From Candidatus Mcinerneyibacteriota bacterium (GTDB lineage Bacteria; AUK180; JAQVHJ01): a stretch of 19,746 nt of DNA. Shown piece by piece: positions 3,850 to 14,237 of this stretch. The notes under the pieces were generated by a model. That model did not search any database, was not told where the DNA came from, and was given only the letters and a program-made list of their open reading frames with translations. The translations under genes were made by a program, and so were the position numbers. Location: assembly GCA_030630935.1 (NCBI GenBank), contig DAOVMD010000008.1, forward strand, positions 1-19,746, read 5' to 3'. Each line of letters opens with the position of its first letter. Within the stretch, counting starts at the first letter, position 1.

Positions 3850-4140
3850 TTGAACTCTTAAACCATTGAACTATCAAAACTTGTTTAACACTTAAACGTT
3901 TTTATTAACACTTAAACCATTCAACTATCTCAACCTCCGCACACTTAAACGTTTTTATTAACTCTTGAACTATTGAACTATATCAACTCCCGCACTCTTA
4001 AACTTTTTTATTAACACTTAAACCATTGAACTATCTCAACCTCCGCACTCTTAAACGTTTTTATTAACTCTTGAACTATTGAACTATATCAACTCCCGCA
4101 CTCTTAAACATTTTATTAACACTTGAACTATTAAACTTTT
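3850..4140 (+). repeat. 53-bp tandem repeat array, about five units, alternating A/B types
   Basis: Units at 3907-3959, 3960-4012, 4013-4065 and 4066-4117 (52 bp), with a degenerate unit before and a partial unit after. Type A begins AACACTTAAACCATT and contains ATCTCAACCTCCGCAC. Type B begins AACTCTTGAACTATTG and contains TATCAACTCCCGCAC. They alternate A-B-A-B, so the true period is about 106 bp. Each unit ends AAACGTTTTTATT or similar. Inside a unit GAACTATT-like octamers recur. Related single units occur at 5093-5150, 7213-7262 and 7343-7430. There are no unique spacers between units, so this is not a CRISPR array. It sits just upstream of the cutA promoter. Confidence 0.9.
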
Positions 4141-4158
4141 TACTTTTTTTATTGTTCC

Positions 4159-4187
4159 TTGACAAAGTATTTTCCAAGTGTTATAAT
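4159..4187 (+). promoter_or_regulatory. Perfect consensus promoter for cutA
   Basis: TTGACA (4159-4164), 17 bp, TATAAT (4182-4187) with extended TG (TGTTATAAT). This is a full match to the sigma70 consensus. The tandem repeat array ends about 20 bp upstream of the -35. Confidence 0.9.
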
Positions 4188-4224: not shown

Positions 4225-4542
4225 ATGGGTGACATTATTCAGATTTCAACTACAACCGAGAAAATCACTGAAGCAGAGAAGATTGCAAACCTTCTTATTG
4301 ACAGTAAACTTGCTGCTTGTGTTCAGGTAAATGGTCCTGCTATCACACACTATATTTGGAAGGGTAAAAAGGAGAGAAGTGAAGAGTTCATCCTTTTTAT
4401 TACAACAAAAAAGGAACTATTCCCGGAAATTGAAAAGGTTATTAAAGAAATACACGCATACGAAACACCAGAAATTTTAATTATCCCTATTATTGGTGGA
4501 AGCAAGGAATATTTGGATTGGATCGAAAAAGAAACTAAGTAA
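4225..4542 (+). CDS. cutA: Divalent cation tolerance protein CutA
   Basis: CutA1 family, a small trimeric cytoplasmic protein linked to tolerance of copper and other divalent metals; its exact biochemical role is unsettled. At 105 residues it is full length. Family landmarks are in order: ISTTTEKITEAEKIANLLIDSKLAACVQV near the N-terminus, the YIWKGK strand, EEFILFITTKKELFPEIEKVIKEIHAYETPEI, and the C-terminal IPIIGGSKEYLDWI. The ATG at 4225 has GGAG six bases upstream and a near-perfect promoter about 37 bp upstream. It is a single-gene unit closed by a hairpin and T-tract at 4546-4588. No metal transporter or regulator lies next to it. Confidence 0.96.
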   Translation: MGDIIQISTTTEKITEAEKIANLLIDSKLAACVQVNGPAITHYIWKGKKERSEEFILFITTKKELFPEIEKVIKEIHAYETPEILIIPIIGGSKEYLDWIEKETK

Positions 4543-4588: not shown

Positions 4589-5168
4589 TGCACTCTTTGC
4601 GCGCGCTGCGGTTAATGATTTTTCTTTTTGTTTTTTTCTGCCGTCCCTACAGGACTGAAATTTCTTAGGGTTATCTATTCCCCGCAATAAATTGCGGGGC
4701 TACTATCGCTTTGTCTCTACGGGACAAATATTAACGATAAATTTTTTGTTTTTATATCATGCAGGTGTTTAAATTCTTCTAGTCAGGGTTAATGCCCTTA
4801 ACCCCTACTGCTTTTACTCATATCTTTTTATTTCTATATTAAAAAGTTCTCATCAGTTCTCCCGATACACTTCGCGTTGGGATCACCTCTCTATGTTCGG
4901 CGATCTGCTGATTTATTGTTTTGTTTTTAAATTATTTCATCGAGACATGCCATGCAAAAGCAACTCTGTTGCTTTTGCAGAGAGCAGATAGCTGAGAACA
5001 GAGAATAGAAAAGAATTTGCCTTCATTTGATAATTAAGGGTAATTATAATATTTCTTGTTAAGAAACAACGATCTGAGCCAAGCGAAACGATAACATTTG
5101 AACTATTGAACACTTGAACGCATGCGAAGCATGCATTGAACTCTTTAATACAGAGCGAAGCGATGTTA
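4589..5168. other. Gene-free spacer with hairpins and dispersed repeats
   Basis: No gene is supported. It contains a perfect hairpin CCCCGCAAT-AA-ATTGCGGGG (4680-4699) inside a block with GTCCCTACAGGAC and CTCTACGGGAC, GGGTTAA-TGCCC-TTAACCC (4786-4804), the 12-bp-arm hairpin at 4953-4979, GCATGC-GAA-GCATGC near 5120, and a degenerate unit of the 53-bp family (about 5093-5150). From memory, CCCCGCAATAAATTGCGGGG-type blocks recur in other bacterial genomes. Confidence 0.7.
4953..5010 (+). repeat. Hairpin repeat family C, copy 1
   Basis: TGCAAAAGCAAC-TCT-GTTGCTTTTGCA is a perfect 12-bp stem (4953-4979), followed by GAGAGCAGATAGCTGAGAAC. The second copy at 7121-7166 has a different stem sequence, GCTAAAGCAAC-TTC-GTTGCTTTAGC, and the same kind of tail (AGAGAACAGAGAGCTGAGAAC). 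Confidence 0.75.
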
Positions 5169-5948
5169 TTAAATCTCTATCTCGCCTATTAGGTATGTAA
5201 TCGCCTGACCTGAAATTTCGACTCTTTCCCCTAAGTCTTTACAGAATACCTCCCCCTGTCTTTCTGAAACTTGGAATGCATGAAGTTCCTTCTTCCCCAA
5301 TTTATTTGACCAATACGGTATTAACGTTGTATATGCTGATCCCGTAACAGGGTCTTCATTAATCCCGGCACCGGGAGCAAAGAATCTTGAGACAAAATCA
5401 GAATCATTACCAACTGCAGAAATAATTATTCCCAGGCAATCAAGTTCATTTAATATTTCAAAATCAGGTTTTATACTCCTGATTACTTCTTCAGAATTAA
5501 AAACTGCAAGATAATCTCGAGACTTTAAAGTTTCAATCGGAGTTGCCTGCAAACCGTCAATGAGCTTTTGCGGGATCTTAACCGGTTCCGATTTTGATGA
5601 AGGGAAATTCATGATAAGCATATTGTCATTTCGACTTACTGTTAACTCACCGCTATTTGTCATGAATTTCACAATGTTAATATCAGGTTTAAGATAATTA
5701 AATATAACATAAGCAGTTGCTAATGTTGCATGTCCGCATAAATCAATCTCTATCTTTGGTGAAAACCACTTCAATTCAAAGAAATCTCCATTACTAACAA
5801 AGAACGCGGTCTCTGAAAGATTATTCTCCGCAGCAATACTCAACATAGTATCTTTATCAAGCCATTCCTTCAATGGACAAACCGCGGCAGGGTTACCCTT
5901 GAAAACTCCGTCTGTAAATACATCAATTTGATATAATGGTATCTTCAT
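5169..5948 (-). CDS. phzF: PhzF family isomerase/epimerase-like protein
   Basis: Phenazine-biosynthesis PhzF-like fold (diaminopimelate-epimerase superfamily), 259 residues, full length. Visible family motifs are IDVFTDGVFKGNPAAVC at 8-24, the catalytic glutamate E46 in NNLSETAFF, CGHATLA at 71-77, GAGINEDPVTGSA at 193-205 and SERQG at 228-232. Most homologues act on small amino-acid-like metabolites of unknown identity. No other phenazine genes are near, so phenazine synthesis is not implied. The ATG at 5948 overlaps the stop of the upstream membrane-protein gene as ATGA, so the two are translationally coupled, and no separate SD is needed. The first 56 bp of the gene are duplicated at the head of the operon (6961-7016). 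Valine 10 here is alanine in that copy, and alanine is what I recall as usual in the family. Confidence 0.94.
   Translation of the reverse strand: MKIPLYQIDVFTDGVFKGNPAAVCPLKEWLDKDTMLSIAAENNLSETAFFVSNGDFFELKWFSPKIEIDLCGHATLATAYVIFNYLKPDINIVKFMTNSGELTVSRNDNMLIMNFPSSKSEPVKIPQKLIDGLQATPIETLKSRDYLAVFNSEEVIRSIKPDFEILNELDCLGIIISAVGNDSDFVSRFFAPGAGINEDPVTGSAYTTLIPYWSNKLGKKELHAFQVSERQGEVFCKDLGERVEISGQAITYLIGEIEI
5893..5948. repeat. 56-bp direct repeat, copy inside phzF
   Basis: First 56 bp of the phzF coding sequence. It matches 6961-7016 at 54 of 56 positions in the same orientation. One edge of the repeat is exactly the start codon. The pair flanks the membrane-protein gene, with a period of 1068 bp. 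Confidence 0.95.
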
Positions 5949-6955
5949 TTCTTCTCTCCTATCTCAAGTTCTTTATTTTTATCTTTTATAATTATTTCCA
6001 TAATTTCAATTTCTGATTCCGAAATCTTGTGATATAGTTTTTGTTTTGCAGGGTTCCTCTTCTTTCTGTCACTTACCCATTCAATAAAAATTGTCCCCTG
6101 GTCATTTACAAAGAAGGATGGGAGTTTAAATATTTTGTTGAAAGGTTTGAGCGGTAACTTTCTGTCCGGGAACATATGTACCTGAAATCCGGATAAGTCG
6201 GAATTATAGTTTATATCTGAATGTGTTTCATTAAAAAATAGCTTCACAGTATCTGGTAAGTTTTTAAAATTATCTGTGTCGCTTGTTTTATCCAAATTTG
6301 TTATCCGCAGATACCTTTTCCTTCCTCCTGATTCTTTTAACATTAATCTTGAATATGCAATTTGATATGTAGAAAAGTTTTTAAGAGCGTTTACTTCCGC
6401 TTGATTTATTGGAATAATTGGGTAATTTTTCAAGGCTATCAAACTATATATGCTAATAGGGATAATAAATAACATAAAAATTGGAGGATATAACATCTTC
6501 CATAACTTTTTTCGAATCGCATCTTCAATTGTACCAAATAACAAAAACCAGAAAAAAATTGATAAACCACAAATGAAAAACAGCCATATTACGGATAGCC
6601 ACATCTGTACAAACACTAGAATTTCCGATGTTATTACCAATAATCCAAAAACCTCTTTCTTTAAAACATGGGAAAGTTTTGTATTTTTCTTAATTGATTG
6701 CATCCATGATAAATAGAAATAAAAACCAAACATAATAATTATTAAAATAAATAGTCCTAATGACAATTCTATTTCTTTAGCTACGAATCCGTAAATATAG
6801 TACGCTGTTAATAATAAGAAAATAATAATTGCGGAAATCTTGCCAACTATCCCCATCTCCTTCTTCGACTTATCAGTATCTGGTATAATATTACCATTTT
6901 TAATATTGTTCTTTTGATCCCTTATCTTATCTGATTCAAATAAATATAATTTCAT
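5945..6955 (-). CDS. Polytopic membrane protein of unknown function
   Basis: 336 residues from the ATG at 6955. A polar, charged N-terminal segment (1-35) is followed by about five hydrophobic segments near residues 38-58, 64-84, 102-122, 122-141 and 154-175, then a soluble C-terminal domain (about 176-336) rich in Lys, Asp and Asn. I do not recognise the family. The ATG at 6955 is preferred over the one at 6994 because the latter would translate the duplicated phzF fragment out of frame. AAGGG lies eight bases before 6955, and a 19-codon phzF-derived leader frame stops one base upstream. Its own stop overlaps the phzF ATG. The gene sits exactly between two 56-bp direct repeats, which suggests that it was inserted into the head of a pre-existing phzF operon. 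Confidence 0.8.
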   Translation of the reverse strand: MKLYLFESDKIRDQKNNIKNGNIIPDTDKSKKEMGIVGKISAIIIFLLLTAYYIYGFVAKEIELSLGLFILIIIMFGFYFYLSWMQSIKKNTKLSHVLKKEVFGLLVITSEILVFVQMWLSVIWLFFICGLSIFFWFLLFGTIEDAIRKKLWKMLYPPIFMLFIIPISIYSLIALKNYPIIPINQAEVNALKNFSTYQIAYSRLMLKESGGRKRYLRITNLDKTSDTDNFKNLPDTVKLFFNETHSDINYNSDLSGFQVHMFPDRKLPLKPFNKIFKLPSFFVNDQGTIFIEWVSDRKKRNPAKQKLYHKISESEIEIMEIIIKDKNKELEIGEKK

Positions 6956-6956
6956 A

Positions 6957-7016
6957 TTAATTACCCTTGAACACTCCGTCTGTAAATGCATCAATTTGAT
7001 ATAATGGTATCTTCAT
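6957..7016 (-). pseudogene. Truncated duplicate of the phzF 5' end (19-codon leader ORF)
   Basis: Reads MKIPLYQIDAFTDGVFKGN then TAA. It is the phzF N-terminus with one substitution, alanine for valine at residue 10. AAGGG lies seven bases before its ATG and a promoter lies just upstream (7034-7062), so it is likely translated. The stop is one base from the ATG of the membrane protein at 6955, an arrangement suited to translational re-initiation. It is either a gene remnant or a leader that delivers ribosomes to the membrane-protein gene. Confidence 0.8.
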
Positions 7017-7033
7017 AATCAACCCTTTTTTTT

Positions 7034-7062
7034 AGTATAGCATATAATTTAATTAAAAGCAA
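7034..7062 (-). promoter_or_regulatory. Promoter of the membrane protein-phzF operon
   Basis: On the minus strand TTGCTT (7062-7057), 17 bp, TATACT (7039-7034), with extended TG (TGCTATACT). The start of transcription is predicted near 7027, about ten bases before the leader ATG at 7016. Confidence 0.7.
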
Positions 7063-7120
7063 ATCATTAAATTGTCAAAAACTTTCAACATGATATATGA
7101 GAATTGCTTCTGCAAAGCAT

Positions 7121-7166
7121 GCTAAAGCAACTTCGTTGCTTTAGCAGAGAACAGAGAGCTGAGAAC
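7121..7166 (+). repeat. Hairpin repeat family C, copy 2
   Basis: GCTAAAGCAAC-TTC-GTTGCTTTAGC stem (7121-7145), then an AGAGAACAGAGAGCTGAG tail. It pairs with copy 1 at 4953-5010. Stem bases differ between the copies while complementarity is kept. Confidence 0.75.
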
Positions 7167-7342
7167 TGAAACCAGTCGTTTCTTAGAGAGAAAAAAGCAA
7201 AGTACGTCTCGTTAATAACATTTGAACAATTGAACTATCTCAACCTCCGCACACTTTAACGATTATATCGGAATGCATCGATGGTAATTGATGCAAAGTA
7301 ATTGCATTGATTCGTAAGCTCATCAATGCACTCCAAAATTAC

Positions 7343-7430
7343 CCATTAACATTTGAACTCTTTAACTATCTCAACTTCCACACACTTAAACGTTTTTATT
7401 AACACTTGAACTATTGAACTCTTTACTTCT
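7343..7430 (+). repeat. Degenerate 53-bp-family units abutting the araC promoter
   Basis: Contains ATCTCAACTTCCACACACTT, AAACGTTTTTATT and AACACTTGAACTATTGAAC, matching the tandem array at 3850-4140. As at cutA, the final unit runs through a T-rich stretch directly into the -35 region. Confidence 0.8.
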
Positions 7431-7442
7431 TTGTTTTTTTGT

Positions 7443-7471
7443 TTGACTTTCATAAGAAAAAATGCTAAACT
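7443..7471 (+). promoter_or_regulatory. Promoter of the araC-receiver operon, predicted leaderless
   Basis: TTGACT (7443-7448), 17 bp, TAAACT (7466-7471), with extended TG (TGCTAAACT). The expected start of transcription, six to seven bases further on, coincides with the araC ATG at 7478, so the mRNA would have little or no leader. Confidence 0.7.
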
Positions 7472-7483
7472 ATTCTTATGAAA
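7448..7483. promoter_or_regulatory. Perfect 11-bp inverted repeat around the araC -10 and start codon (operator candidate)
   Basis: TTTCATAAGAA (7448-7458) and TTCTTATGAAA (7473-7483) are exact reverse complements, separated by 14 bp that hold the -10. Arm centres are 25 bp apart, a little over two helical turns. The right arm includes the ATG. A dimeric regulator bound here would block RNA polymerase. The regulator is not identified; autoregulation is one possibility. Confidence 0.65.
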
Positions 7484-8263
7484 AATTCAACTCAAGGACC
7501 AAAAGTATTTTATTTTTCAAAAGAACGATTAATCTTTAAAAAGAACAAGAGCTTTTTAATTCATATCCCAGTAGATAATTGCAATTACAAATACCAAGAG
7601 AGTTTTACGTTTCATAAATCAAAGCCTTGTATTTCAATATTTAACTATGAAGACTTTGATTACGGTAATTTACTTAAAAGTATCTTATTTATGAAGGCTT
7701 TAAATCCGCATTGTATTTTTCTGATTTTAATAAATAGTAATACTATCACTCCTGACCTTGAAGGATTAACCACTATTTCAAATTTATTTTTAATAACAAA
7801 TGATCAAGCCCCAAGAATTGAAACTATTATAAATAACCTATTTCGAAAACATCGAGAAGAGATTTCTTTTTTGTTTTTCATACTAAAGATAATTACTCGT
7901 ATTAATAACCCTGTTGATTTCAGGAATTTAAAATGTGATTTTTCTATATCTTCCAATAATCACTTTAACAAATTATGCAAGAAATATTTCAACCTTTCTC
8001 TTAACCAAATAAAAGATGCAATTATAATAGATAAGATCTTAAACTTTTTAAAATTCTCAATGAAGAATGCCTCTGAAATAGCATCGGAGTTAGGATTTCG
8101 GGATGTTTCTTACCTGACACATTTCTTCAAGCGAAAAACAGATGTCTCCCCTTATCAATATAGAAAATTCTATTACAATAAGATTTCTAAAATTAAATGT
8201 AGTTTACAATATAATATTAACAATGAAAGAGATTGTTTAACCATGGAGTCAAAGCAGTCATGA
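7478..8263 (+). CDS. AraC-type transcriptional regulator with degenerate N-terminal domain
   Basis: 261 residues. The C-terminal part is an AraC/XylS DNA-binding domain. A first helix-turn-helix at about 150-188 (SNNHFNKLCKKYFNLSLNQIKDAIIIDKIL) is followed by the strongly conserved second one at about 196-235 (ASEIASELGFRDVSYLTHFFKRKTDVSPYQYRK). The N-terminal 130 residues are not a cupin of the AraC sensor type. Residues 60-125 (LLKSILFMKALNPHCIFLILIN...) look like the second half of a receiver fold, but the phosphorylatable aspartate and acidic cluster are not apparent, so this is inference. No SD precedes the ATG; the promoter places the transcript start at about the start codon, which suggests leaderless translation. 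The stop overlaps the next gene's ATG (ATGA). Targets are unknown. It may control its own promoter through the dyad at 7448-7483. Confidence 0.85.
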   Translation: MKNSTQGPKVFYFSKERLIFKKNKSFLIHIPVDNCNYKYQESFTFHKSKPCISIFNYEDFDYGNLLKSILFMKALNPHCIFLILINSNTITPDLEGLTTISNLFLITNDQAPRIETIINNLFRKHREEISFLFFILKIITRINNPVDFRNLKCDFSISSNNHFNKLCKKYFNLSLNQIKDAIIIDKILNFLKFSMKNASEIASELGFRDVSYLTHFFKRKTDVSPYQYRKFYYNKISKIKCSLQYNINNERDCLTMESKQS

Positions 8264-9108
8264 AGAAAGACGATTTTTCATTAACAACTTTTAAAGATGC
8301 GATCAAACTATTCCACTCTCTTTCTTATGAGGGAAAAGAATTCCCACAGGGAATGTACTCAAAGACTCTAGCAGAAATTGAGATTTCAGAAACTCTAAGT
8401 GACCTGCTTTATGTTCTTGAAAAATTTAATCCGGATTTCGATCCATTTGATTGGGGGAAAAAAATCAAGATTGCAATCGGGTGTGATAAATTTCCATTCT
8501 TAAAATTAGTTCTGCAGGAGAGTCCAATCAAAGGAGAATATGGTTTTCTTGTTGACAGGCATTCTGAGTTCTTAGGACATAAAGTAAGTATTTCATATGA
8601 AAAAGAAGTTGAGTTAAAGAAATATTTAAATGACTTAAAAAATAAAATCGAGGATATTTTTTACGAAAATCACCTTCCAAGTTATAAATACCTGATTAAG
8701 AAGTACATTGACGAAAACAGTCAGGATATTCCATCGTCAGAGCGAAAAGGTTCTATCTTACTTGCAGAGGATGAGCCTGATGTTCACGACCTTTATAAAA
8801 TGGAACTTGAGATCATAGGATACTCTGTCTGTTCAGCATACTCCGGAGAAGATGCATTGGATATGGTTGATGAAAGTGACTTCTCTTGTGTTGTTCTGGA
8901 TTTAATGATGCCGAATGTTAGCGGACTCGATGTCCTTGAAGCAATTGGTAAGGAACATAAATGCATTATACTCTCCGCACTTGCTGATGATAATACTAAA
9001 GAAACTTGTAAAAACCTTGGTGCTGCGGCTTACCTGGAAAAACCTGCGGAACAAACTGAACTGGAAATCACAATTGAGAAAGTACGAAAAGGTGAACATT
9101 TAATTTAG
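8260..9108 (+). CDS. Receiver-domain protein with unknown N-terminal domain
   Basis: 282 residues from the ATG at 8260, which overlaps the araC stop as ATGA and has GGAG eleven bases upstream. An in-frame ATG at 8233 would lie inside araC and is less likely. The C-terminal third (about 165-275) is a complete response-regulator receiver: acidic pair E170/D171 in LLAEDEPDV, phosphoacceptor D214 in VVLDLMMP, S239 in IILSA and K261 in LEKPA. Residues 1-160 form an uncharacterised domain with a helical linker (YEKEVELKKYLNDLKNKIEDIF). A C-terminal receiver on an unknown N-terminal domain is unlike the usual receiver-first order. Coupled expression suggests that it works with the AraC-type regulator, perhaps as its phosphorylation-dependent partner. 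No histidine kinase is in the window. Confidence 0.88.
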   Translation: MKKDDFSLTTFKDAIKLFHSLSYEGKEFPQGMYSKTLAEIEISETLSDLLYVLEKFNPDFDPFDWGKKIKIAIGCDKFPFLKLVLQESPIKGEYGFLVDRHSEFLGHKVSISYEKEVELKKYLNDLKNKIEDIFYENHLPSYKYLIKKYIDENSQDIPSSERKGSILLAEDEPDVHDLYKMELEIIGYSVCSAYSGEDALDMVDESDFSCVVLDLMMPNVSGLDVLEAIGKEHKCIILSALADDNTKETCKNLGAAAYLEKPAEQTELEITIEKVRKGEHLI

Positions 9109-10868: not shown

Positions 10869-13800
10869 TTAAAATGAAGCTTCTTTGCTCACTCTTTTTA
10901 AATTTGAAACTAAAAATATTATTATTAAAACTAATAGAATGAGACTTATTAATATGAACTTAAAAATCATCTGTGGAACGGCTGAATAAAGAATTGAGGA
11001 GATATATCCCAGGAATAGAAAATACATCAGGATTAAATATGAAAAATAATTCTCTTTAAGAAATAGGATCAAGAATCCAATTAACGCAGTTAAAAACATT
11101 AATATAAACCAAAACAAGTAGTAAAAAGCCGGGAAATGAAACCTTGAAATTGCTCCTGTCAGAATAATGCTGAGTACAATCACATAAGCAAACCATATCT
11201 GTGGATTTAAATAATTCTTAATAATAAAATAAAGAATATATAAAAATATGCTTCCGCTAACTAAAAAAAGAATCCCTGTTAATACCAAATTAATAGTCAA
11301 ATAATGTAAACTTAAAAACCTCGGGTTAAAAATTGGGACCGGTAGATATGGAATATTTAAATTTATGGAAATTATTTGATAAAATTTAATGAGTGCAAAA
11401 CTAATGATTGCTGCAAATAATCCCTTCAAAATAGAATCTCTAATATAAGCCCAATGATATTTCTTCTTATATGGAATAATAAAATCAGTTGATGTCCTTT
11501 TAAAGTTCACCTGATAAAATAAGGCGATTAAAAAGGCGAATCCAACACCTAATAAAACAGATGACATAAATTTGGAAGACATTAGAATAACAAAATACTT
11601 TATTAATTCAACTGAAGTATCATAATATAAAAGATCATTTTTAATAATTAACAATTTAGAAATAAAATGAATTAAACCTAAAATTATTGTGACTTGAAAT
11701 ATTTTTTTAAAGGGAGTCTTAACAGTATTTAAATTTGAGAAAAATGTCAATAACATTAGTGCTGTTATTAAACCAAGACAAAATACTAAAAGGATTGAGA
11801 TTAAAGTTTGAAAACCATGTTGTTTTTCCCTTTCATCCTTCCAATTCTCCGGAATCTTAAGGTTTAAGCCCGTAACCAAAACCTCATCCCCCTGTACCCG
11901 AACTGTTAACTTTGGATACGCATCATGAATCTCTCCGGCTTTATCTTTCCACGTAAAAGTAAAATCCGTCCGGTTCTTTCGCTGTTCAGTTTTTACGTCT
12001 AATTGCTCAAATCTATCTTCTGAAAAATACGGGAGTAAACGGTTTAGCTCATCATTGATTAGAATTAAAGCCCCTTCTCTTTCAAGGTTCGCTCCGGGAG
12101 CTTCTTCACTCAGGTGATGAAGATAGTGGTGAATCTCTCCATTAAATTTAATTATAACATAATAACTTTCCTTATCTTCAGGCTTATAAAATCTAATTAT
12201 ATAATAAAAAGGTTCCGCAAGATATTTTTCATAATATTTTTCAACTTCACTTATTATAATTTTCTCCCTTAAGAAATTAACGGATTCCTCTATAATGACC
12301 TGACGATATGCTGAGGTGATCCCGGAACAAATATCAAATTTTGTTAAATCAACCTTTTTCCTTTCAAGAAACTTTTTCGCTCGAGCTTCTGCTTCTTTAA
12401 CTGTCGTTTCTGGTTTGGAAAATAATGTGATTGGAGAATACGACCTAACTGAAATTAACCAAATAAATATTAATACAATTAAAACACCTAAGATCAAGAG
12501 CTTGGAAGGTTTCATTTTAACATACTCTAATCCCGGATGATTAAAGTGAACCTCTTTAGTTTTTGTAACTTCAAGCTGATCAGCTTCGTTTAAGATATCA
12601 GGATTATCTGAGAATCCCTTATTTCTGAAATAACTTATTAATGACAGAACCAACGGAATAAATACAATCCCAACCACTATTAATCCCGAAATTATAAAAT
12701 ATAAATTACTTGACCCGAAAAGGAACATCCCAACTAATGCGGCATCAATTGCGTAATGCCAGATGAGTGTTGCAAGTATCCCATAACGAATCATTATAAT
12801 CCCGGCGACTATTCCAATTATCCCAATTTCAATCCCACGGATATAACCCGGTTGCTGCGGGTAATTGCTGTGCAAAAAACCCCAGAGAAATGCAGGAATT
12901 ATAACTGCTAGAAAATCCGATTTCGTTAACTTCTTAAAAAATGGAATCGCAAAAACTCTAAATGTGAACTCCTCACTTACTGAAGCCATGACTCCAATAG
13001 TTAAAGGGAATATCCAGGGGATAACAGTATTCACCATCTCAGTATATTCCGTACCTGCCGGAGCCCAAACTCCAAAATCTTTACTTTTAATATAAAATAA
13101 TATTACAAAACCGATATGGAACATAGCAAGAATATAACCCCAAATAGAACCTAATAATGTTTCCGTAAGACTAAACCCATTCTTCGAAAACAGTACGGAT
13201 AACTGGATCTTTTTCTTGAAATACTCTCGATAAATTGATTCTCCGGAAGCAACCGCAAGGAAGATTAAGAATCCCTGGAGAAGTCCTAACGCAAGGCCAG
13301 CAAAGCTAAATTGTATAATAAATGCAGAGAACGAATTTGTAACATCATATTCTGCAAGATAAAACGGATACATATTTAGATGAGATAAAACCTGAAGAAT
13401 AAATATCAATATTCCAAACCTGAATGCAAGCTTGAACTTAATATCCTTCTTTCTAAAACGATAGATAAAATTAATAATTATCACAACCATTAAAAGCACA
13501 TAAAAGATTGTTGAAATTGATTGATAAAGGTTATTGCCAGAACGAAGTTTTCTGTAGCCCCTCGTCCATTTCTCAGGAACCTTTAAGTATTCCCGATAGC
13601 TTCCAACCTCATTACCCTGTATCTTAATAATGTATCTATAAACAGCATCGTCAAGATTAAATCCCCTTACCTCCCATTCAAAATGATAATCTGTCCTATT
13701 AGGTTGACGAATCTGTTTCTCTTCCTTTAAAACAAGCTTATTGAAATCTAAACCGACTGTCTCTTTTAGAAATACTTCTGCAATTAATAAAGCTTCGGAC

Positions 13801-14237
13801 TGTTCTAAATTCGCACCAGGACGAGCCTCTTCATAAATATGTTGAAACTCCTTCAGCTTACCTTCTGTATTAAAACTTATTTTGAATTCTTCTTTTTGTA
13901 AGGGCTTGAATCTGCGGCAGCGCCAGGACCAAATATTAAATCCTTTCCTGTTTAGTTCCTCAAGTTTCTCAATGCCAAACTCCTTATCAATAAAAACTCC
14001 CGCTGTAGAATCCTGAGAAAAAATAATTGTTTTGGAATATGAATCATCTAAATCAAAACCCTGCTCACGCAGGAAATTATCACAGATTCCCTGAATCTCT
14101 TTCCGCGAATACTTAAAATCTAACGATGCCTCCGGGAATGCACCCTTGAAATTCCGTACACCAAATAATAAAAACAAGATGCTGATAAGGAAAAATATTA
14201 ATATTATAAATAAATGTTTCTTTGATATAACTTTCAT
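10869..14237 (-). CDS. Giant CPBP-family intramembrane metalloprotease with duplicated extracytoplasmic domains
   Basis: 1122 residues, against roughly 200-350 for ordinary CPBP (CaaX protease/bacteriocin-processing) proteins. Order: membrane anchor (8-26); extracytoplasmic module 1 (about 30-236); membrane segments (240-345); CPBP core with all three active-site motifs, EEFTFR at 422-427, FLWGFLH with H456, and HYAID with H494 and D498; linker; anchor (578-597); extracytoplasmic module 2 (about 600-805); and a second membrane block of about eight to nine segments (810-1112) that lacks CPBP motifs. The two modules are homologous: EEARPGANLE/EEAPGANLE, PNRTDYHFEW/KNRTDFTFTW, IQGNEV/VQGDEV and LKVPEKW/LKIPENW. 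They resemble PepSY-like domains. The ATG has AGGAG eight bases upstream. It is first in an operon with nitroreductase. It probably cleaves membrane-bound substrates; substrate unknown. Confidence 0.9.
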   Translation of the reverse strand: MKVISKKHLFIILIFFLISILFLLFGVRNFKGAFPEASLDFKYSRKEIQGICDNFLREQGFDLDDSYSKTIIFSQDSTAGVFIDKEFGIEKLEELNRKGFNIWSWRCRRFKPLQKEEFKISFNTEGKLKEFQHIYEEARPGANLEQSEALLIAEVFLKETVGLDFNKLVLKEEKQIRQPNRTDYHFEWEVRGFNLDDAVYRYIIKIQGNEVGSYREYLKVPEKWTRGYRKLRSGNNLYQSISTIFYVLLMVVIIINFIYRFRKKDIKFKLAFRFGILIFILQVLSHLNMYPFYLAEYDVTNSFSAFIIQFSFAGLALGLLQGFLIFLAVASGESIYREYFKKKIQLSVLFSKNGFSLTETLLGSIWGYILAMFHIGFVILFYIKSKDFGVWAPAGTEYTEMVNTVIPWIFPLTIGVMASVSEEFTFRVFAIPFFKKLTKSDFLAVIIPAFLWGFLHSNYPQQPGYIRGIEIGIIGIVAGIIMIRYGILATLIWHYAIDAALVGMFLFGSSNLYFIISGLIVVGIVFIPLVLSLISYFRNKGFSDNPDILNEADQLEVTKTKEVHFNHPGLEYVKMKPSKLLILGVLIVLIFIWLISVRSYSPITLFSKPETTVKEAEARAKKFLERKKVDLTKFDICSGITSAYRQVIIEESVNFLREKIIISEVEKYYEKYLAEPFYYIIRFYKPEDKESYYVIIKFNGEIHHYLHHLSEEAPGANLEREGALILINDELNRLLPYFSEDRFEQLDVKTEQRKNRTDFTFTWKDKAGEIHDAYPKLTVRVQGDEVLVTGLNLKIPENWKDEREKQHGFQTLISILLVFCLGLITALMLLTFFSNLNTVKTPFKKIFQVTIILGLIHFISKLLIIKNDLLYYDTSVELIKYFVILMSSKFMSSVLLGVGFAFLIALFYQVNFKRTSTDFIIPYKKKYHWAYIRDSILKGLFAAIISFALIKFYQIISINLNIPYLPVPIFNPRFLSLHYLTINLVLTGILFLVSGSIFLYILYFIIKNYLNPQIWFAYVIVLSIILTGAISRFHFPAFYYLFWFILMFLTALIGFLILFLKENYFSYLILMYFLFLGYISSILYSAVPQMIFKFILISLILLVLIIIFLVSNLKRVSKEASF

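Follow-up and report, generated by a model that had tools for sequence, protein, structure and literature searches.

How does the start of a gene come to stand twice in the same orientation around a different, complete gene? This question is raised by the phzF locus of a draft genome (G000) of a Candidatus Mcinerneyibacteriota bacterium, analyzed here within a window of 19,746 nucleotides, i.e., the whole stretch of DNA under study. The features that pose the question are the following:

5169–5948, minus strand: intact phzF, PhzC-PhzF family, 259 aa (PF02567, E = 2e-54; TIGR00654)
5893–5948, minus strand: inner repeat copy, which is the start of intact phzF (repeat comparison)
5945–6955, minus strand: M, membrane-protein gene, 336 aa, ATG at 6955, stop at 5945–5947 (relatives in G004, G001 and contig C151 of G000)
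6961–7016, minus strand: outer copy of the phzF head, 56 bp (54/56 repeat match; Ala-10 kept, as in most PhzF relatives)

The repeated phzF start and the gene that it encloses

The first 56 bp of phzF were found by repeat search at 5893–5948 and again at 6961–7016, in the same orientation and with 54 of 56 positions identical, M being the sole gene between the two copies. One edge of the repeat coincides exactly with the phzF ATG, while the sequences flanking the copies agree at chance level (12/40 upstream and 10/40 downstream). Since the next best ungapped 56-mer match within the window reaches just 32/56, a chance origin of the repeat is excluded. No further copies were detected in the organism’s own assembly, searched with positions 5000–7480 of the window. 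A previous sequence-only reading had described a repeat of this identity and orientation around one gene, which the search and the coordinates confirmed, and had placed its edge at the phzF ATG and joined M to phzF by ATGA, both of which are present in the sequence.

The two copies differ at base 29, which is C in the outer and T in the inner copy (Ala to Val), and at base 45 (G/T), where the change is synonymous. At the Ala/Val position, seven of nine PhzF relatives carry Ala, one Ser and one Thr, and none Val, so the alanine that the earlier reading had named as usual in the family was indeed the common residue. Judged from these relatives, Ala is ancestral and has been kept in the outer copy, and the Val of intact phzF is derived. 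The further proposal that the outer copy is the original phzF head fared less clearly: its promoter-like neighborhood and the ancestral Ala agree with it, but the Ala does not decide which copy is the original, because copying before the Val mutation would also have preserved it. With 2 differences in 56 positions, the head copy may also be merely young rather than selectively kept.

Apart from the 56-bp repeat, dispersed intergenic repeats occupy positions 3858–4163, 4970–5170 and 7090–7450 of the window, and include a 53-bp tandem array at 3891–4137. Comparison of positions 5000–7480 with the organism’s own assembly returned 81 matches to these dispersed repeats, and no comparable match was found in the syntenic contigs of G001. 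They may represent a mobile or REP-like family.

The protein encoded by M had no match in Pfam and no sequence match in the PDB, and its NCBIfam matches were all below cut-off. Its structural model, of modest confidence (pLDDT 67), is mostly helical, with helix predicted for the N-terminal two thirds and a strand/helix domain at the C-terminus, and gave no significant fold match; a resemblance of the C-terminal domain to type IV pilins (4d40) was discarded, as an E-value of 0.97 is not evidence. Relatives of M exist inside the phylum, in G004 and G001, and none were found in viral and plasmid collections. In the whole of its own assembly, M gave one match; the same genome has a further member of the family on contig C151 (L039, 373–1320), where the upstream gene is different. 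Elsewhere in the window, at 10869–14237, a membrane protein of 1122 aa showed a weak, sub-cut-off match to DUF4901 (YcdB/YcdC repeat) and contains the motif EEFTFR, which recalls proteases of the CPBP/CAAX type.

The corresponding locus in relatives

The position of the locus was compared with that in G001, the only genome of the same family in a comparison set that included none of the same genus. Three genes around phzF and M served as syntenic anchors:

4225–4542, plus strand: CutA-like gene (56% identical to the CutA-like gene beside M', the counterpart of M in G001)
7478–8263, plus strand: AraC-type HTH protein, on the other side (HTH_18; relative in contig C259 of G001)
8233–9108, plus strand: response regulator (66% identical over 275 aa to its counterpart in contig C259 of G001)

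In G001, the end of contig C256 carries cutA (+) and M' (-) in convergent orientation, M' being represented by its C-terminal 114 aa, with a 358-bp gap between the two genes and no phzF. The start of contig C259 carries the N-terminal part of M' (-) and a gene that we call X (-), followed by the divergent genes for the AraC-type protein (+) and the response regulator (+). The order in the window, namely CutA, (phzF), M, AraC-type protein and response regulator, matches that of G001, and both phzF and the 56-bp repeat are absent from the G001 locus. Sequence similarity between the two loci is lower for the AraC-type protein (24% identical, 9e-19) and for M against the C-terminal part of M' (28% identical, 5e-7), both E-values being those for a set of ten proteins. 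The similarity of M to M' is weak, and the N-terminal half is without BLAST similarity. Both parts of M' matched the G004 relative well (9e-16 and 9e-12). One is approximately 196 aa long, counted from the likely start, and the other 114 aa, so that together they reach about the 309 aa of that relative; both observations support a single M' gene split by a contig break. Since the ends of C256 and C259 share no sequence overlap, we infer this join; similarly, strict orthology of M and M' rests on position, because the M family has another member in G000.

The distribution of phzF is different. The protein of the window matched the PhzF family over the full profile (PF02567, 185.5 bits against a cut-off of 27; TIGR00654, 130.8 against 76.2), while PF02567 was absent from all six of the other genomes of the phylum in a search that was positive in 11 of 14 control genomes. 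The phzF of the window is the only one among the seven phylum genomes compared. Its best relative, 64% identical, was found in G007, which belongs to a different phylum and is the one genome of that phylum in the set, and a scan of genome contigs returned PhzF of Candidatus Methanorudis (51%) as sole match, which is uninformative about this locus. Since G001 has M' in place without phzF, and six genomes of the phylum are without PhzF, M is best regarded as the old resident of this locus and phzF as newly acquired in this lineage.

Gene X is a conserved partner located just upstream of M relatives (L049, 591–1253; L029, 800–1393). It precedes M' in G001, where its stop lies 1 nt ahead of the M' start (joint GGGGAATGAAATG) and AAGGGG precedes this stop-start (GAGAAAAAGGGGAATGAAATG). 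The adjacency of X and M was also observed in G004, X being 32% identical between the two genomes (2e-25), and the pair is likely to be old because it is found in two families of the class. X was found neither in the window nor in the G000 assembly, which is approximately 80% complete. The copy of the phzF head occupies its former place, because the window keeps the same layout of stop, one base and start. Further, codons 17–19 of phzF share the motif AAGGG(N)AA with the 3' end of the G001 X gene; judged from this one distant relative and a motif that is common, the joint may have formed at this short homology.

The outer copy as a probable leader of M

The outer copy and M are accompanied by start and stop signals, arranged as follows:

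7034–7039, minus strand: TATACT after TGC, similar to an extended -10 promoter and 17 nt ahead of the leader ATG (by eye)
7023–7029, minus strand: AAAAGGG, 6 nt ahead of the leader ATG, as its Shine-Dalgarno-like site (sequence)
6957–7016, minus strand: 19-codon leader ORF, MKIPLYQIDAFTDGVFKGN-TAA, with its stop 1 nt ahead of the M ATG (translation, sequence)
6963–6968, minus strand: AAGGGT within the leader, Shine-Dalgarno-like site for M, whose ATG lies 8 nt beyond the GGG (sequence)
5954–5959, minus strand: GGAGAG in the 3' end of M, Shine-Dalgarno-like site of phzF (sequence)

The promoter-like element, TGCTATACT, resembles an extended -10 promoter; a good -35 is missing, and a consensus scan did not report the element. 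The phzF head of the window ends in AAGGGTAAT-TAA-T-ATG, so that the joint AAGGGTAATTAATATG consists of a stop, 1 nt and a start, and the AAGGGT before M has its counterpart in the AAGGGG at the equivalent place before M'. The spacing between leader and M is +1, whereas M and phzF overlap by ATGA (spacing -4). According to a recent review, translational coupling works best when the spacing is between -4 and +3 nt, the value met most often being -4 (NTGA) (PMC12548453). By its start signals, its internal ribosome site and a stop within the range of -4 to +3 nt, the leader has the architecture of a putative coupling leader. The coupled unit of three ORFs claimed by the earlier reading is likewise present in form, as judged from the joints of leader, M and phzF.

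The folding of the leader RNA was no more stable than that of shuffled sequences (z 0.28). There is no support for the unfolding form of coupling at the leader and, since its RNA is not unusually folded, termination-reinitiation is the likely mode. Taken as a whole, the head remnant probably serves as a translated leader that couples translation to M. Ribosomes would start on the 19-codon leader, read through it and stop 1 nt before M, where restart would use the AAGGGT inside the leader; M would then pass ribosomes to intact phzF via ATGA. Coupling of leader to M would in this way stand in for that of X to M in the relative.

Origin of the arrangement

The reading that we favor, at a probability of roughly 65%, is that the 56-bp copy is the scar of an operon rearrangement that followed the acquisition of phzF beside X-M, in which it replaced X and would have assumed a leader role. 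In such a course of events, phzF would have landed at the resident X-M locus; then either a tandem phzF-M duplication would have been pruned, with loss of X, the spare M and all but the head of the first phzF, or the head would have been copied across when X was deleted.

Regarding the first of these routes, phzF would have stood upstream of X-M under the present promoter, and phzF-X-M would have been duplicated, after which the first unit would have lost its phzF body, X would have disappeared and the second unit would have lost its M. The outer copy, located beside the promoter, keeps the ancestral Ala, and direct repeats of the dispersed family flank the unit (5092–5115; 7216, 7347 and 7400) as possible recombination sites. 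A remnant, the 56-bp phzF head, is present at the duplicated place, although a templated copy would look alike. Several events are required, however, with exact joints at M|ATG and head|M, and no trace of X or an additional M was detected, so that we put this route forward tentatively, as a serious candidate with less than an even chance.

The alternative route requires the fewest events. Here, phzF would have landed downstream of M and X would later have been deleted, and the repair of the gap would have used the nearby phzF head as template for 56 bp, joined at the ATG and at AAGGG(N)AA. The edges of the copy lie at the ATG and at a Shine-Dalgarno-like motif found likewise at the end of the G001 X gene; however, the motif is a common one and the X sequence compared is that of a distant relative rather than of this lineage, which leaves templated copying possible but somewhat unlikely.

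In a one-step integration, DNA carrying M-phzF would have come in from a related strain, one of its ends recombining with a resident phzF and the other joining by illegitimate recombination; the two differing heads would then be those of recipient and donor. This would need a phzF resident before M, yet G001 has M' as the resident and phzF is rare in the phylum; we consider it improbable.

The sequence-only reading put forward that short-homology duplication had captured M at the start codon of phzF. Such a capture would account for a geometry like that of a target duplication, with the promoter on one side and the phzF body on the other. The same reading had named a relative with the membrane-protein gene ancestrally in place as the case that would speak against it, and G001 is such a relative: it holds M' in place without phzF and without the repeat. 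An insert is expected to be absent from the same place in relatives, and M' is present there. On the synteny with G001, we rejected an insertion of M into phzF, which is contradicted unless M was lost and regained at that locus and is therefore very improbable. The earlier description was correct and the observation stands, but the direction of events is reversed by the G001 synteny.

We also looked for a recurrent process or a mobile element. A scan of 80 sequences of the organism’s own genome (545,829 bases including the window, approximately 17% of the assembly) revealed no other gene-start fragments flanking another gene. Its matches were tandem paralogs, within-protein repeats, dispersed repeats and a degenerate copy from inside a methyltransferase gene, and on this approximately 17% of the assembly a recurrent process was rejected. 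The latter copy, on contig C78 of G000 (L129, 5354–5434 vs. 4892–4966), is an 80% degenerate copy of an internal methyltransferase segment, located approximately 230–310 bp upstream of the gene start, and looks like a decayed partial duplication. Between the two repeat copies of the window there is no recombinase or transposase, the only gene there being M, without a Pfam match. A mobile cassette was likewise discarded, given that M is without viral or plasmid relatives and has one match in its own genome. The lack of mobile relatives of M and of a second case in 546 kb also weighs against its capture; as far as the sequences tell, no mobile element is indicated, nor does the case point to a new one. 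Finally, an assembly artefact, for which the fragmentation of the assembly (471 contigs) could be invoked, is hardly credible because the copies differ at 2 sites, have no exact run longer than 28 bp in common, and leave the new junctions head|M and M|ATG both outside the sequence that they share.

Read as an operon rearrangement scar, the locus would be a freeze-frame of operon remodeling, with an acquired gene, a lost resident gene and a recognizable scar that apparently keeps the resident translated. It suggests that stop-start coupling could survive the exchange of an upstream gene for the head of an unrelated one. These considerations apply to one example in one draft genome. More broadly, gene-start fragments comprising a promoter, a ribosome site and the first ~20 codons might be portable leader modules, reused in operons rebuilt after horizontal acquisition. 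We regard this generalization as doubtful; if it were true, the head of the new gene would take over the coupling role of the lost upstream gene.

Comparison with known systems

Within the PhzF family of isomerases (PF02567, TIGR00654), intact phzF encodes a clear member, and nothing unusual was found in the protein. Integrative elements can enter the end of a gene and restore it, as SXT does at prfC. As in those elements, a gene end is duplicated on both sides of an insert; in contrast to them, there is no integrase here, the “insert” is one resident gene, and M is without relatives in the mobile collections.

Tandem duplication with random loss, best documented in animal mitochondria (e.g., PMC3283314), similarly leaves a partial remnant of a duplicated gene at its former place and a changed gene order. 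The present case differs in that it concerns a bacterial operon, in which the remnant has start signals and a probable use, and the duplication is postulated from the arrangement. In architecture, the joint of leader and M resembles the engineered bicistronic design (PMC6302717; for coupling leaders, PMC12548453), where a short ORF with its own ribosome site carries a second site inside and ends beside the next start. Here, stop and start are separated by +1 nt without overlap, and the putative coupling arrangement is a natural one built from the start of a third gene.
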